Origin: a virus
Strand: one strand, 5' to 3'
DNA: 22,368 nt
IMG/VR virus record: IMGVR_UViG_3300033148_009505
Coordinates: 1-22,368 of that record
Part shown: piece after piece, positions 14,831 to 22,368 of the stretch
Layout: each line of letters opens with the position of its first letter
Numbering within the stretch: position 1 is the stretch's first letter
Notes under the pieces: model-generated
The model's input: only the letters and a program-made list of their open reading frames with translations
Told to the model about the DNA's origin: nothing
The model's database searches: none
Translations under genes and position numbers: made by a program

Positions 14831-15187
14831 TCAGCCTCCTTCGTTCGGTTTGCAGGCCACGGCGGACAGGGGCCTGCCGCAGCGCGCGCAGTGGGGCGGG
14901 GGCGTGGGGCCGACATCCTCCACCAGGGCGTAGGCCTGGAATACGCCGGGCAGGCCGGTGGCCCGAGGGCCGACCTTGCGCAGGTAGCCGTGGTGCTCCA
15001 GCCTGCGGACGAACTTGCGGGCGTTTTCCAGGGCCGCCTGGCGGCTGGTGGGCACCAGGGCGTCCGGCAGGGTGCGGACCAGGTCCGGCACGGTGAACCG
15101 CCGGAGGATGCGCATGGATTTCCACAGGGCCTCCCTGGCCGTGCCCGTGTTGGCGCGGGTGCGCAGCATGCCCGGCTTACCGGCCAT
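14831..15187 (-). CDS. Winged-helix protein with C-terminal Cys cluster, 118 aa
   Basis: ATG 15187 overlaps the MuB stop by 11 bases. The middle (RRFTVPDLVRTLPDA, SRQAALENARKFVRRLEHHGYLRKVG, FQAYALVED) reads as a winged HTH, with the 'L...GYL.k.g' recognition-helix-to-wing pattern. The C-terminus has CARCGRPLSAVAC, which may bind zinc. Such wHTH/Zn proteins follow B in several Mu-like phages of deltaproteobacteria as far as I recall, with unknown role. A regulatory or DNA-binding role is inferred. Confidence 0.66.
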   Translation of the reverse strand: MAGKPGMLRTRANTGTAREALWKSMRILRRFTVPDLVRTLPDALVPTSRQAALENARKFVRRLEHHGYLRKVGPRATGLPGVFQAYALVEDVGPTPPPHCARCGRPLSAVACKPNEGG

Positions 15188-15911
15188 TGGCGGCCCTCCG
15201 CGCCCGGAATGTGGGCTGGTCGTAGAACAGGGCCCGGTCTCCCCAGGCGGCCAGGTCCACGGAGGTAAGCCCGTTGGTTTTGGCCAGGGTTTCCACGCGG
15301 GAAAGAGCCGTGGTCATGCGGCCGATGTTGGAATCCGCCTCAGCGCGGATGTGGGCCAGGAGGTCGTCGGCCACCTGGACCTCGCAGACCGTGTCCGCCA
15401 GGATGCGGGTATCCGCGTCCGAGATGCCGGAGAACTCCACCCACTGGGTGATGCGGCGCGCGGTGCGGCCGTGGCGGCGGACCTTGCGGGCCATGTCCTC
15501 CATGCCGATGAGGACGATGGGCGAGCCTGAGACGTCGTAGATATCCCGGAGGGTGTCCAGCATGGCTGGGTCGCGGAGGAGGTAGTCGGCCTCGTCCACA
15601 AACACGGGCCGGGGATCGGCCATGAGGGAGCGGGTGATGGCGTCCACCATGGGCGCGCGGAAGCGGAGCGGGCTGTGCCCCAGTTCGGTCATGATGGCGG
15701 CCAGCATGGAGGTCATGGTCCAGGCCGCGTTGGCCCGGACGAAAACGCCGGAAAGCGTGTTGGCGGCGAAGGCCACGGTGGTGGACTTGCCCTCCCCGGG
15801 CTGGCCCCAGAGCAACCCCATGCCCTCCACCCCCAGGGAGCGGTCCCGCAGCTCCCGCACAGCGGCCAGGAAGCGGCGGACGTTCGACGTCATTGCCAAT
15901 TCGTGTTTCAT
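15177..15911 (-). CDS. B: MuB-type transposition ATPase
   Basis: 244 aa AAA+ protein that would bind target DNA and deliver it to the transposase. Walker A is GQPGEGKST at residues 36-44, Walker B PVFVDEADYL (Asp106, Glu107), with sensor-like IVLIGMEDM and the arginine-rich RRHGRTARRITQWVEF. It is shorter than Mu B (312 aa) and starts close to the ATPase domain, so the N-terminal HTH domain of Mu B seems absent. ATG 15911 has GGGAGG 8 bases upstream. A 91-base gap with two hairpins separates it from the transposase gene. Confidence 0.93.
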   Translation of the reverse strand: MKHELAMTSNVRRFLAAVRELRDRSLGVEGMGLLWGQPGEGKSTTVAFAANTLSGVFVRANAAWTMTSMLAAIMTELGHSPLRFRAPMVDAITRSLMADPRPVFVDEADYLLRDPAMLDTLRDIYDVSGSPIVLIGMEDMARKVRRHGRTARRITQWVEFSGISDADTRILADTVCEVQVADDLLAHIRAEADSNIGRMTTALSRVETLAKTNGLTSVDLAAWGDRALFYDQPTFRARRAANGR

Positions 15912-16002: not shown

Positions 16003-18138
16003 TTAGAGCGCCTGTTTCTTTCCCGTTTCCAGCCAGCGCTCGTAGTCCTCCTTCCACTTCCTGTCCCCGGGGGAAACCGGCTCCCCGGCGGCCAGGTCCT
16101 CGCAGATCTGCTCGTAGCGTTCCCACTCCGTGGCCGGCAAAGGCCGCCTGGGACGGGCCATTTCGATGACCTCGGCGGCGGCGCGCTCCTGTTCGGGCGT
16201 GATTTCCTGGGGGGCCTGGGGGCCGCGCACGGAGGCGCGGACGGCCTCGGCGGCGGTCTCCAGGCCGGTGGATGTCCAGGGCACCTCGTGGTGGGGCAGG
16301 GGGGCCAGGTTCGCGGTCTCCCGCTCCCGGGCTTCCAGGATGTCCCGGTAGGCCAGGTGTGCGCTGGTCTTCTTGGCGATCTTCCTCAGCTCGGCCGCGC
16401 CCTTTTTGTAGATCTCGTCCTGGATCTTTCTGGCGGCCGCGGCGATCTCCTGGCGGTCCAGGCCCGCGCGCTCCGGGTCGTAGGCGCAGCCTACGAACTC
16501 GCGGGAACGATCGGGCAATTCCTTGTACAGGTAGATGGTGCCGGCGTCGGTGGGGTCCAGCAGGACCAGGAGGCGCTTGCCCTCGTGGCCGATGAGATCC
16601 GTGCCGATGTAGTGGGTGTTGTCCACCTGGATCCCTTTTTTGCCCACGGTGCGGTACTTGTCGTCCGCCGGGGGGCACAGGAGCATGTCCAGCGCGCGGG
16701 GGTCGTGGATTTTTTTGACCTCGCCGCGCCAGGATGCCGCCTTTTCAAACGGCGTCATGCCCAGGGAGGAGTGCTTGTCGTGGTGGTAGACGGCCTCCAG
16801 CCAGCGGTCGCACAGGGCCTGGAACTCCTCGGAGGTGAGGGGGATCTCTTCGGTGACCTTGCCCTTGCCCATGATGCGGTCGGCAAAGGATTTGCGGGCC
16901 TCGATGGCCTTTCTGTCCGCCACGGAGTGGCCCACGTAGCCGGGGAGGAGCTCCACGATGGAATGGGAGAAGGTGCGAAAAAAGCGCTCGATATGGGGCT
17001 TCTGCTCCGGGTGGAAAGGCTCGCAGACCTCCTGGTCCACGCCCAGCTCGTGGAGGACGGCGGAGATGTAGTAGCTCGTGTAGTCCGCGCCTTCGTCCGT
17101 GCGGGCCACCTCGGGCACGCCCCAGTCCAGGATGGCGCGGCGGATGAGCGCGGCGATGCCCTCGCTGTTGCTGGTCTTCCGCACCAGGAGCTTGGCGCGG
17201 CGGGAGTAGACGTCTATGCAGCCGATGACGGTGTGGCGGCCGTCTTCGAGCATAAGGTCGCCCGGGGTGGAGTCGAACTCCCAAAGCTGGTTGAGCCGCG
17301 TGACGTCCTCGGCGGCGTCGCCGAAGGCGGCCTGGAAGGAGCTCCTGAACTGGTCCGGATTTCGGACGGCCTCCAGCACGGCCTCGGCCTCGGCCCTGAA
17401 CCGCTCCACGTAGCGGCGGATGCTGGACTGGGAAGGCAGGTTCTCCTCGCCGATGCGGGCCTTTAAGGTCGCCCAGATGGCGGGGACGCGCATGTGGGGC
17501 ATGGCGGCCAACAGGCCCTGGATGTGCTCCTGGACGTGTTCGGGCACGGAGGTTTCCCCGGCGCGGCTGACGTATTTAGGGGCCAGGCCGGGGAGGCCGC
17601 CGGCCTTGTAGGCGGACTCCCAGCGGCTGATAGTGGCCCGGGAGGGCGCCTTGCGGGACGCGGATTCCAAAACCCACCCGGGCAGGTCCACGCGGCCGGC
17701 GGCGAGCTCGCGGCAGAAGACCTCCGTGCCGCGTTTCTTGGCAAAGCCGCCGGCGGCCAGGAACATGTCCCGGGCGGTGAGGATCTCGAACCTGGCCCGG
17801 GCCTGGAGCTGGCGCTCCTTGGGCAGGCGGGTGAAGGCCGCCATCTCCCGCTCGGCGGCCAGGAGCTTTGCGCGCTCCCTGGCCACCTGCTGCTCGGCCA
17901 GGCGGCGGCCAGCGGCCTCTCCGGCCCGGCCCGCGGCCGCCTTTTTGCGGCTGGCCTGGACTTGGGCGCGGATCTCCGGGGGGAGGCAGTCCACGGGGAA
18001 GGCTTGTTTCCTGCCGCCACGGCACCGGAGCGCGGCGGTGGGCCACTGCTCGCGCTTGGCCACGGTGTTGACCCACCTGACCGAGGAACCCGTGGCCCGG
18101 GCGATTTCCGTTGCCGTCACCGCGTCCGCCTGCCTCAT
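16003..18138 (-). CDS. A: MuA-type DDE transposase
   Basis: 711 aa (Mu A is 663). The N-terminal Mu-type winged HTH (VTATEIARATGSSVRWVNTVAKREQWP) is followed by internal HTH and helical DNA-binding regions (residues about 170-250). The catalytic core has WEFDSTPGD (Asp289), RTDEGADYTS (Asp348) and KPHIERFFRT (Glu384). The Mu-transpos_C beta-barrel is marked by VDNTHYIGTDLIGHEGKRLLVLLDP, and a basic/helical tail follows. It catalyses DNA strand cutting and joining at phage ends, with MuB. The spacing Asp348-Glu384 is 35 residues, closer to D35E enzymes than to Mu A, which has 55. ATG 18138 has GGAG upstream. Confidence 0.96.
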   Translation of the reverse strand: MRQADAVTATEIARATGSSVRWVNTVAKREQWPTAALRCRGGRKQAFPVDCLPPEIRAQVQASRKKAAAGRAGEAAGRRLAEQQVARERAKLLAAEREMAAFTRLPKERQLQARARFEILTARDMFLAAGGFAKKRGTEVFCRELAAGRVDLPGWVLESASRKAPSRATISRWESAYKAGGLPGLAPKYVSRAGETSVPEHVQEHIQGLLAAMPHMRVPAIWATLKARIGEENLPSQSSIRRYVERFRAEAEAVLEAVRNPDQFRSSFQAAFGDAAEDVTRLNQLWEFDSTPGDLMLEDGRHTVIGCIDVYSRRAKLLVRKTSNSEGIAALIRRAILDWGVPEVARTDEGADYTSYYISAVLHELGVDQEVCEPFHPEQKPHIERFFRTFSHSIVELLPGYVGHSVADRKAIEARKSFADRIMGKGKVTEEIPLTSEEFQALCDRWLEAVYHHDKHSSLGMTPFEKAASWRGEVKKIHDPRALDMLLCPPADDKYRTVGKKGIQVDNTHYIGTDLIGHEGKRLLVLLDPTDAGTIYLYKELPDRSREFVGCAYDPERAGLDRQEIAAAARKIQDEIYKKGAAELRKIAKKTSAHLAYRDILEARERETANLAPLPHHEVPWTSTGLETAAEAVRASVRGPQAPQEITPEQERAAAEVIEMARPRRPLPATEWERYEQICEDLAAGEPVSPGDRKWKEDYERWLETGKKQAL

Positions 18139-20356: not shown

Positions 20357-20611
20357 CTAAGACCTGGCCTTGGGAGGCCGGATGTAGCGGGGGTTTCCGG
20401 ATTCGTCGTACCGGCTGGGCCAGATCCACGACGGGTGCATGTCCAGAATCCTGCCGATGCGCTCCTGCACCCGGGGGTACCTTTTCTGGAACACCGCGTT
20501 GGCGGTGGTGGGCTTGAGGCCGAGTTCGCGGGAGATGCGGGCCAGGCTGTAACCGCGCTTTTCCAGGGCGGCCTTGACGTCCGCGGGGTGCCAGTCGGTG
20601 GGCTGGGGCAT
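20357..20611 (-). CDS. ner: Ner-like negative regulator
   Basis: 84 aa from ATG 20611 with AGGAGG 9 bases upstream; the ORF track extension to 20656 lacks a site. The Ner/Nlp pattern is clear: WHPADVKAALEKRGYSLARISRELGLKPTTANAVFQKRYPRVQERIGRILDMHPSWIWPSRYDE. The HTH helices fall at about residues 22-42. In Mu, Ner shuts down early and repressor promoters in the lytic phase. It is the first early gene, divergent from the repressor, so it probably binds the intervening operator region. Confidence 0.93.
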   Translation of the reverse strand: MPQPTDWHPADVKAALEKRGYSLARISRELGLKPTTANAVFQKRYPRVQERIGRILDMHPSWIWPSRYDESGNPRYIRPPKARS

Positions 20612-20700
20612 GGGGTTTTGCCTCCTGGGTCTATGTTCGAGGGCTAAGATAGACATATGTGTATTATGAATGTGGTTATTATGTCAACCAGAAAATACAA
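20612..20700. promoter_or_regulatory. Divergent operator/promoter region between Ner and repressor
   Basis: This AT-rich gap holds two adjacent near-repeats, ATGTGTATTATG (20657-20668) and ATGTGGTTATTATG (20670-20683), a palindrome ACATATGT (20653-20660), and TGGTT/AACCA (20673-20677 and 20686-20690). On the minus strand TTGACA at 20687-20682 is a perfect -35, with only weak -10 matches 15-18 bases on. It is the likely binding site of the repressor and Ner and the start of early transcription. It may also serve as the transposition enhancer, as in Mu. Confidence 0.65.
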
Positions 20701-21375
20701 ATGGATACCATCCAGAAACGATTGGCTTTTTTAGTCGACTCCCTTGCAGAGGGCAACAATGCTGCCTTCGCGCGTAAGGCTGGTATTCTCCAAGGCACCT
20801 TCCAAAATTACATGAAAGGCCGCGAACCTTCTCTCGAAGCCATACGTAATATACATTTGGCTTATGGCGTAGATTTAAACTGGCTTGCGATGGGCAAAGG
20901 CGAACCCTTCGGGCAGCCACGAGAAACGCCCCCGCATTCGGAGGCCGACGAATACGCCTACATCCCCTTTGCCCAAGCGGAGCTGGCGGCGGGAGACGGC
21001 CTGGTGGCGGACGAGGGGCTGGGCAAGCGGTTCGCTTTTCGGCGCGACTGGCTGCGGAGCGCGGGGATCCGCGCGGAGAGGGCGTATCTGATGCTGGTGC
21101 GGGGGGATTCCATGGCCCCCACGTTGCAGGAGGGGGACACGGTATTGGTGGACACCAGCCGGCGGGAGCTTTTTTCCGGGAGGATTTACGCCGTGGCCGC
21201 GGGCGGGGACCTGCTGATGGTGAAGCGGCTGGAGCGCAGAGGGGACCAGGTGCGCGTGATATCCGACAACCAGGGGTTGTATCCGTCCTACATGGTGGGC
21301 ATCGAGGATATACGGGTGATCGGCCAGGTATGCTGGTTCGCCCGGAGGCTGACCCCGGCCGAAAACGGGGCTTGA
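20701..21375 (+). CDS. Phage repressor, HTH plus S24 peptidase (LexA/CI-like)
   Basis: 224 aa from ATG 20701; a GTG at 20659 is in frame but would lie inside the operator repeats. An N-terminal HTH (NAAFARKAGILQGTFQNYMKGREPSLEAI, residues 20-47) is followed by VDLNWLAMGKGEPF, a hinge, and an S24 domain. This domain has RGDSMAPTLQEGDTVLVD (Ser137) and LLMVKRLERR (Lys175), the Ser-Lys dyad. LAAGDG at 95-100 contains a possible Ala-Gly self-cleavage site. It would hold lysogeny and be inactivated by RecA/SOS. Mu c itself lacks a peptidase domain, so this repressor type differs from Mu. The first 200 bases are less GC-rich than the rest. Confidence 0.93.
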   Translation: MDTIQKRLAFLVDSLAEGNNAAFARKAGILQGTFQNYMKGREPSLEAIRNIHLAYGVDLNWLAMGKGEPFGQPRETPPHSEADEYAYIPFAQAELAAGDGLVADEGLGKRFAFRRDWLRSAGIRAERAYLMLVRGDSMAPTLQEGDTVLVDTSRRELFSGRIYAVAAGGDLLMVKRLERRGDQVRVISDNQGLYPSYMVGIEDIRVIGQVCWFARRLTPAENGA

Positions 21376-21398: not shown

Positions 21399-21875
21399 AT
21401 GAAGAAGATTCTTGTGGTGCTGGTGGGGGTGGCGGTGCTGGCGGGATGTGCGGGGATGACCGGCCAGCGACTGAGCGCGGAGGACGCAAGTGTGGAGAAG
21501 GTGTATGAGGCGCCCGGTCTTACCCAGAAACAGATATATGACGGGGCGCGGCTTTGGATCGCCCAGACATTCAAGGACGCCAAAAAGGTCATCGAGCTCG
21601 AAGACCCGGAGGCCGGCATCATTATCGGCAACGGGAACATGGCCTACCCGGCCACGGACGCAGAGAAGCTTTGGGTGTTGAAGGACGAGCGGGTCTTTTT
21701 TTCTATCCGCATCGACACCAAAGACGGGAAGTTCCGTATGAGATTTTCCGAAATCCATCTTGACGACCTGCCCCTTTACGAGGGGCATATGACCGCGATC
21801 CGGCCCAAGCTGCTGGCCGTCGGTGATGAGCTGGCGGCCAGCCTGGGCAGCGAGCAAGCGGAAAGCGACTGGTAG
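21399..21875 (+). CDS. DUF4468-like lipoprotein (probable lysogenic conversion gene)
   Basis: 158 aa. A short signal peptide MKKILVVLVGVAVLAGC ends in a lipobox LAGC (lipidated Cys17). The mature part has LTQKQIYDGARLWIAQTFKDAKKVIELEDPEAGIIIGNGNM, then RVFFSIRIDTKDGKFRMRFSEI, the pattern of DUF4468, a beta-sheet domain of TBP-like fold seen in lipoproteins. Its function is unknown; it would be anchored in the outer or inner membrane. It follows the repressor by 23 bases with TAAGGAGG upstream of the ATG, so it may be expressed in the lysogen. It lies between repressor and phage end, a classic cargo position. Confidence 0.8.
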   Translation: MKKILVVLVGVAVLAGCAGMTGQRLSAEDASVEKVYEAPGLTQKQIYDGARLWIAQTFKDAKKVIELEDPEAGIIIGNGNMAYPATDAEKLWVLKDERVFFSIRIDTKDGKFRMRFSEIHLDDLPLYEGHMTAIRPKLLAVGDELAASLGSEQAESDW

Positions 21876-22130: not shown

Positions 22131-22134
22131 AGGT

Positions 22135-22144
22135 CTCAAACCAC
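22135..22144. promoter_or_regulatory. Transposase-site candidate, L3-like copy
   Basis: CTCAAACCAC, the innermost of three same-orientation copies near the phage end, with GGT before it. It lies 41 bases from the next copy. Proposed as a transposase-binding site by copy number and spacing alone. Confidence 0.5.
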
Positions 22145-22170
22145 GTGAAATTTGCCTCCAGGATGGGATG

Positions 22171-22187
22171 GTGGACTCAAACCACCC
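22171..22187. promoter_or_regulatory. Transposase-site candidate, L2-like copy
   Basis: GTGGACTCAAACCAC, which shares 15 bases with the outer copy. The core starts at 22176, 41 bases from the inner copy and 85 from the outer one. Mu shows a similar long L1-L2 and short L2-L3 spacing. Confidence 0.6.
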
Positions 22188-22255
22188 GGATAATCAAAAA
22201 AGCGACGAATCTTAAAGCAAATCGCAACCTTTTCACTTAGAGAGCCGCGCGTGCC

Positions 22256-22272
22256 GTGGACTCAAACCACTC
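22256..22272. promoter_or_regulatory. Transposase-site candidate, L1-like copy at phage end
   Basis: GTGGACTCAAACCAC, then TCGACCCCCCACA leading to the inferred terminal CA. The site is about 11-13 bases from the end, a little farther than L1 in Mu. The next sequence to the right is coding in a different context. Confidence 0.6.
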
Positions 22273-22368
22273 GACCCCCCACACTCTCCAAGGCAGGCAG
22301 CCAGGTCCGGTTCAGCAGGTGGGAATAGTCCGCCCGGCCGCCCACCGTGTTGCAGAAGAAGTATTCCG
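22262..22368 (-). CDS. Partial host gene cut by the prophage end
   Basis: From the window edge a minus-strand frame reads EYFFCNTVGGRADYSHLLNR and TWLPALESVGG, with strongly GC-biased codons, then meets TGA at 22264-22262 inside the outer transposase site. The last few codons (about GRVV) lie in phage DNA if the end is at 22281-22283. This looks like a host protein truncated by insertion; an intact gene ending by chance just inside the phage is less likely. The protein is not recognised from 34 residues. Confidence 0.5.
   Translation of the reverse strand, partial: EYFFCNTVGGRADYSHLLNRTWLPALESVGGRVV

Follow-up and report, generated by a model that had tools for sequence, protein, structure and literature searches.

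The transposable phage Mu has three MuA sites at each end, bound by the I-beta-gamma domains; on cleavage, 3' ends at CA become exposed and attack the target 5 bp apart (PMC3562280, PMC3362531). As measured on NC_000929, the left end of Mu consists of a TG terminus and three direct sites, the first of which occupies nt 6–27 with its core starting at nt 16, and the L1–L2 distance is long and the L2–L3 distance short (105/39, or 105/40 by full site). For the D3112 group of Mu-like phages of Pseudomonas aeruginosa, TGT termini and three putative 22 bp sites per end have been reported; on the left, the sites lie 10, 93, and 124 bp from the terminus, and on the right, R1, R2, and R3 lie at 4, 46, and 93 bp, with R1 inverted to R2 and R3 (PMC4378225). 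For KS10, transposase sites unlike those of Mu have already been published (PMC2628397).

The DNA analyzed here, referred to as the window, is the whole 22,368 bp viral record IMGVR_UViG_3300033148_009505, a fragment in which a left end is included and the right end falls outside the record. Direct search of the window bore out the original prediction that CTCAAACCAC occurs in three exact copies of a single orientation, at 22135, 22176, and 22261, and the predicted spacings of 41 and 85 were correct. The longer repeat that had been assigned to the two outer copies belongs to the middle (22171–22185) and end-proximal (22256–22270) copies, which have the 15-mer GTGGACTCAAACCAC in common; the innermost copy at 22135 reads AGGTCTCAAACCAC. 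Read inwards from the left end of the phage, which means along the minus strand, the repeat core is GGTTTGAG[T/A]CC. The putative cores on this strand are GGTTTGAGTCC for L1 (22258–22268, nt 16–26 from the terminus), GGTTTGAGTCC for L2 (22173–22183, nt 101–111), and GGTTTGAGACC for L3 (22132–22142, nt 142–152), and L1 as a 22 bp site in the Mu register would span 22257–22278. The L1–L2 spacer (22184–22257) is the proposed bend region, with a GC content of 47% vs. 67% for the whole window. Such a low GC content would suit a DNA bend of the kind that we infer from Mu.

Repeats as short as a 10-mer, next to a host-like flank, might have arisen by chance or be host-genome repeats unrelated to the phage, and the exact motif in spaced double copies is also present elsewhere: a scan of IMG/VR matched it only in unrelated coding or tandem-repeat DNA. 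However, among 1000 dinucleotide shuffles of the whole window, only 3 had any 10-mer with three non-overlapping copies within 150 bp; in the real window, the CTCAAACCAC cluster was the only such triple. No further copy was found on either strand of the 22,368 bp record with 1 mismatch allowed, including the 85 bp flank, and the position and spacing of the three copies agree with those in relatives and Mu. A chance or host origin is thus extremely improbable. The exact double motif was absent from any other Mu-like record scanned, and the exact terminal 16-mer was present in seven IMG/VR records, none of which had a relative of the window transposase.

With the transposase as a query, 24 viral and 10 genomic relatives were identified (35–46% identity in the best segment); the collections searched yielded no close relative (>50% transposase identity). 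In 297 genomes from the phylum of the L035 host, there were only distant transposases (33–39% identity), the window repressor as a query returned one truncated relative, and a nucleotide search of the window against 50,697 phages gave no match. For two of the relatives, L005 (IMGVR_UViG_3300005254_000010) and L035, with transposases 35–42% identical, both prophage ends were present with perfect 5 bp target duplications, AACAA and TACTT, respectively. The left end of L005 reads AACAA and then TGTAGGGGGTCATAAGGTATGAGACC, and its right end, read inwards, is TGTAGCGTGACGCAAGGTTTGGAACCAATTAACGCAAGGTATGAAACC with AACAA again outside; the left end of L035 reads TACTT and then TGTGAAGCACCGGTTGACTTGGCACC, and its right end is TGTAACCCCCCGCGCATTTTGGCACCACTCAACGCTTGATTTGGCACC with TACTT outside. 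Both phages have repeats of their own motif versions, with nt 16, counted from the TG terminus, as the start of the first core, and two inverted core copies 22 bp apart at the right end. Such inverted right-end copies were also present in the Pseudoalteromonas phage HS6, each of the three phages having its own motif. In the L035 prophage, the middle left-end copy (about 6630–6640 of L065) has the opposite orientation to L1 and L3.

When the 26 terminal nt of the L005 left end were compared with the window, the best match was exactly at 22283 on the minus strand (19/26; the next best, 15/26), and the phage therefore ends there: TGTGGGGGGTCGAGTGGTTTGAGTCC. The L006 end (IMGVR_UViG_3300027985_001592) matched 17/26 at 22283 and equally well at one other position, and the L005 right end matched 16/26 there, the second best in the window; the ends of L025, L035, HS6, and Mu were too divergent to be used in this comparison. 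The terminus at 22283 is TGTG on the minus strand, with TG on the minus strand and CA on the plus strand, and the homology to L005 supports the predicted CA end beside the outer copy. The first core starts at nt 16, that is 15 nt inside the TG terminus, in the window, L005, L006, L025, L035, HS6, and Mu alike. A terminus at approximately 22269, with TGGTTTGAG as the very end, was also considered and was ruled out by alignment to L005, L006, L025, and L035.

Outside the located terminus, the window has only 85 bp of flanking, presumably host DNA (22284–22368), beginning with the predicted 5 bp target duplication CTCTC (22284–22288, plus strand), which is modeled on the duplications of L005 and L035. 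One stop-free frame of the flank, on the minus strand, reads EYFFCNTVGGRADYSHLLNRTWLPALE. This peptide had no match in Pfam, PDB, or the 297 genomes, and two plasmid hits were non-significant (E 7–8); therefore, the label 'host' rests on the position of the terminus and not on gene recognition. Of the host-like coding sequence that had been predicted here, the open frame in 85 bp was found but the coding identity was not. The left end of Mu DNA in virions is flanked by 50–150 bp of host sequence (PMC12135933); a flank of only 85 bp thus suggests that the record may derive from packaged DNA.

The genes of the window are those of a Mu-like phage. A MuA-type DDE transposase (16003–18138, minus strand), presumed to bind L1–L3, matched PF09299, PF00665, and PF02316, all above the cut-offs, and has the catalytic residues D289, D348, and E384. 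It is accompanied by a MuB-like AAA ATPase (15177–15911, minus strand), a Ner-like regulator (HTH_35; 20357–20656, minus strand), and a CI/S24-type repressor (20659–21375, plus strand), and the window also codes for Gam-like, portal, minor head, and major head proteins, including head genes of the Mu type. A DUF4468 lipoprotein gene (21399–21875, plus strand) lies between the repressor and the left end, where Mu has no annotated gene, and may represent prophage-expressed cargo. The predicted structure of the transposase (mean pLDDT 71.5, pTM 0.44) resembles TnsB, IstA, and retroviral integrases as a model. MuA was not among the PDB matches listed, by sequence or fold, which is no evidence against a relationship. 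A Tn7/CAST (TnsB) identity was rejected, despite the TnsB-like predicted fold, as the neighboring genes tested are MuB-like, Gam, Ner, portal, and head genes and not TnsA/TnsC/TniQ.

Short direct repeats in a non-coding stretch that adjoins repressor and lipoprotein genes could also be operators, of either the phage repressor or some other regulator, that act in transcription near the end and not in transposition. But the repeats lie at the terminus, downstream of the last phage gene, the DUF4468 lipoprotein gene, and approximately 750 bp past the repressor stop codon, whereas the divergent control region sits near 20657. Moreover, the equivalent repeats of the relatives occur at both ends, at a fixed distance from the TG terminus and beside 5 bp duplications. 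We consider a role as operators very unlikely. The position beyond the last phage gene is where a Mu-like left end is expected, and transcription of the transposase gene runs away from the repeats. In L005 (3123–3238) and L018 (1138–1250), three AACTCCGAAATT-type repeats were observed upstream of the transposase, and these are probably repressor operators.

The end found in the window thus has a TG...CA terminus and three repeat cores with a long L1–L2 and a short L2–L3 distance. Together with the MuA-type transposase and MuB, and with the two-end layout and 5 bp duplications of the relatives, the terminus offset and the spacings support the predicted Mu-like reading: the repeats are, with high confidence, the L1/L2/L3 transposase-binding sites of a Mu-like transposable phage whose left end terminates at 22283. 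The same sites might be those of an end that has decayed or been truncated and has lost its function, as the record is a fragment and one end alone cannot show function. Nevertheless, two sites have 14 of 15 bases in common, the end retains its TG terminus, and the reading frame of the transposase is intact with its invariant catalytic residues, so that a non-working end has only a minimal probability.

A two-end scan for TG termini, a 5 bp duplication, and a 22 bp right-end pair placed the L005 and L035 ends far ahead of the next candidates (31 vs. 18 and 30 vs. 20, respectively) and gave no convincing end for G064. In a blind scan for triple repeats, 22283 came out on top in the window, as did the known end in L005, and the known end of Mu was among tied top candidates; the known ends of L006, L022, L025, L035, and HS6 were not ranked first, and the scan is therefore not a general end finder.

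The spacing pattern of the window resembles that of Mu. The L1–L2/L2–L3 spacings were 85/41 in the window, 118/42 in L005, 113/42 in L025, 115/41 in L022, and 105/39 in Mu, with the L2 copies of the relatives picked by eye and the L2 assignments of L006 and L035 weak. The L2–L3 distance of 41 is comparable to those of L005, L022, and L025 (41–42) and Mu (39–40), whereas L1–L2 falls short of the Mu distance by 20 bp, about two helical turns. The site sequence of Mu (GAAGTACGAAA) is unrelated to that of the window (GGTTTGAGTCC). In contrast, the sites of the nearest relatives are recognizably related to it (GGTATGAGACC, GGTATGGGACC, and GGTTTGGAACC). L005 and L006 have the terminus TGTAGGGGG vs. 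TGTGGGGGG in the window and a related core, GGTATGRGACC, at nt 16, and L005 further resembles the window in its L2–L3 of 42, with R1/R2 and the 5 bp duplication in addition. They differ in an L1–L2 of 117–118 vs. 85 and at 2–3 of the 11 core positions, the L2 of L006 being weak. HS6 has a transposase of the same family (36% identity), a core at nt 16 at both ends, and an R1–R2 distance of 22, but its core is AAATGATAAA and its L2–L3 is 24 with the copies chosen; the HS6-type left terminus recurred with four different flanks. The D3112 group resembles the window in its TGT termini and three putative left-end sites, and its right-end layout is a different one.

Another difference lies just inside L1. 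GGGA or GGGAT tracts at intervals of approximately 10–12 nt were observed there in Mu (nt 30–75 of L072), and likewise at the left ends of L008, L018, L021, L022, L025, L035 (L065), L037, and HS6 (L055), whereas there were none in nt 27–100 of the window. The GGGA tract of Mu presumably overlaps the Mu packaging site. Lacking this tract, the window phage may use another packaging signal, different from that of Mu.

The predicted end-binding region of the transposase, residues 76–250, was only 17–37% identical to relatives, vs. 58–71% in the catalytic core. In this region, identity was 31% with L005 and 37% with L006 and 17–25% with relatives that have other site sequences; L005 and L006, with the most similar sites, are thus also among the most similar in residues 76–250. 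L004 was equal to L005 at 31%, and no left end was located on the L004 contig.

By analogy with Mu, the N-terminal end-binding region of the transposase (16003–18138) would contact all three direct copies, and the L1–L2 stretch would be bent in the complex. The left-end sites would then pair with inverted copies at the right end (R1 and R2, 22 bp apart in relatives), and the transposase, assisted by the MuB-like ATPase, would cleave behind the CA dinucleotide and link both ends to the target with a 5 bp stagger. Transposase binding to the repeats, the L1–L2 bend, and the window phage's own right end are what we infer, and the terminus is located by homology.

The original prediction of a new transposase site type was too strong, since the sites of the relatives are related and lineage-specific sites are known in Mu-like phages (PMC4378225, PMC2628397). 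What is new here is a phage member with a new site sequence, in a branch in which no studied member was found; the structure type, a Mu-like three-site end, is already known. For this phage, the exact end was fixed from sequence alone, with the predicted transposase site GGTTTGAGWCC. The geometry of the first core at nt 16, the 22 bp right-end register, and, in many cases, an L2–L3 near 40 bp recurs among very different sites, and the constant 15 nt offset with the 22 bp register is a useful regularity. It is an even question whether end geometry is fixed throughout the transposase family and Mu alongside a complete change of site sequence and rapid divergence of the end-binding region. If so, a fixed geometry with changing sites would be a natural series for reading the code of site recognition. 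The relatives also suggest that the nt 16 core and the 22 bp right-end pair can locate the ends of Mu-like prophages whose site sequence is unknown.
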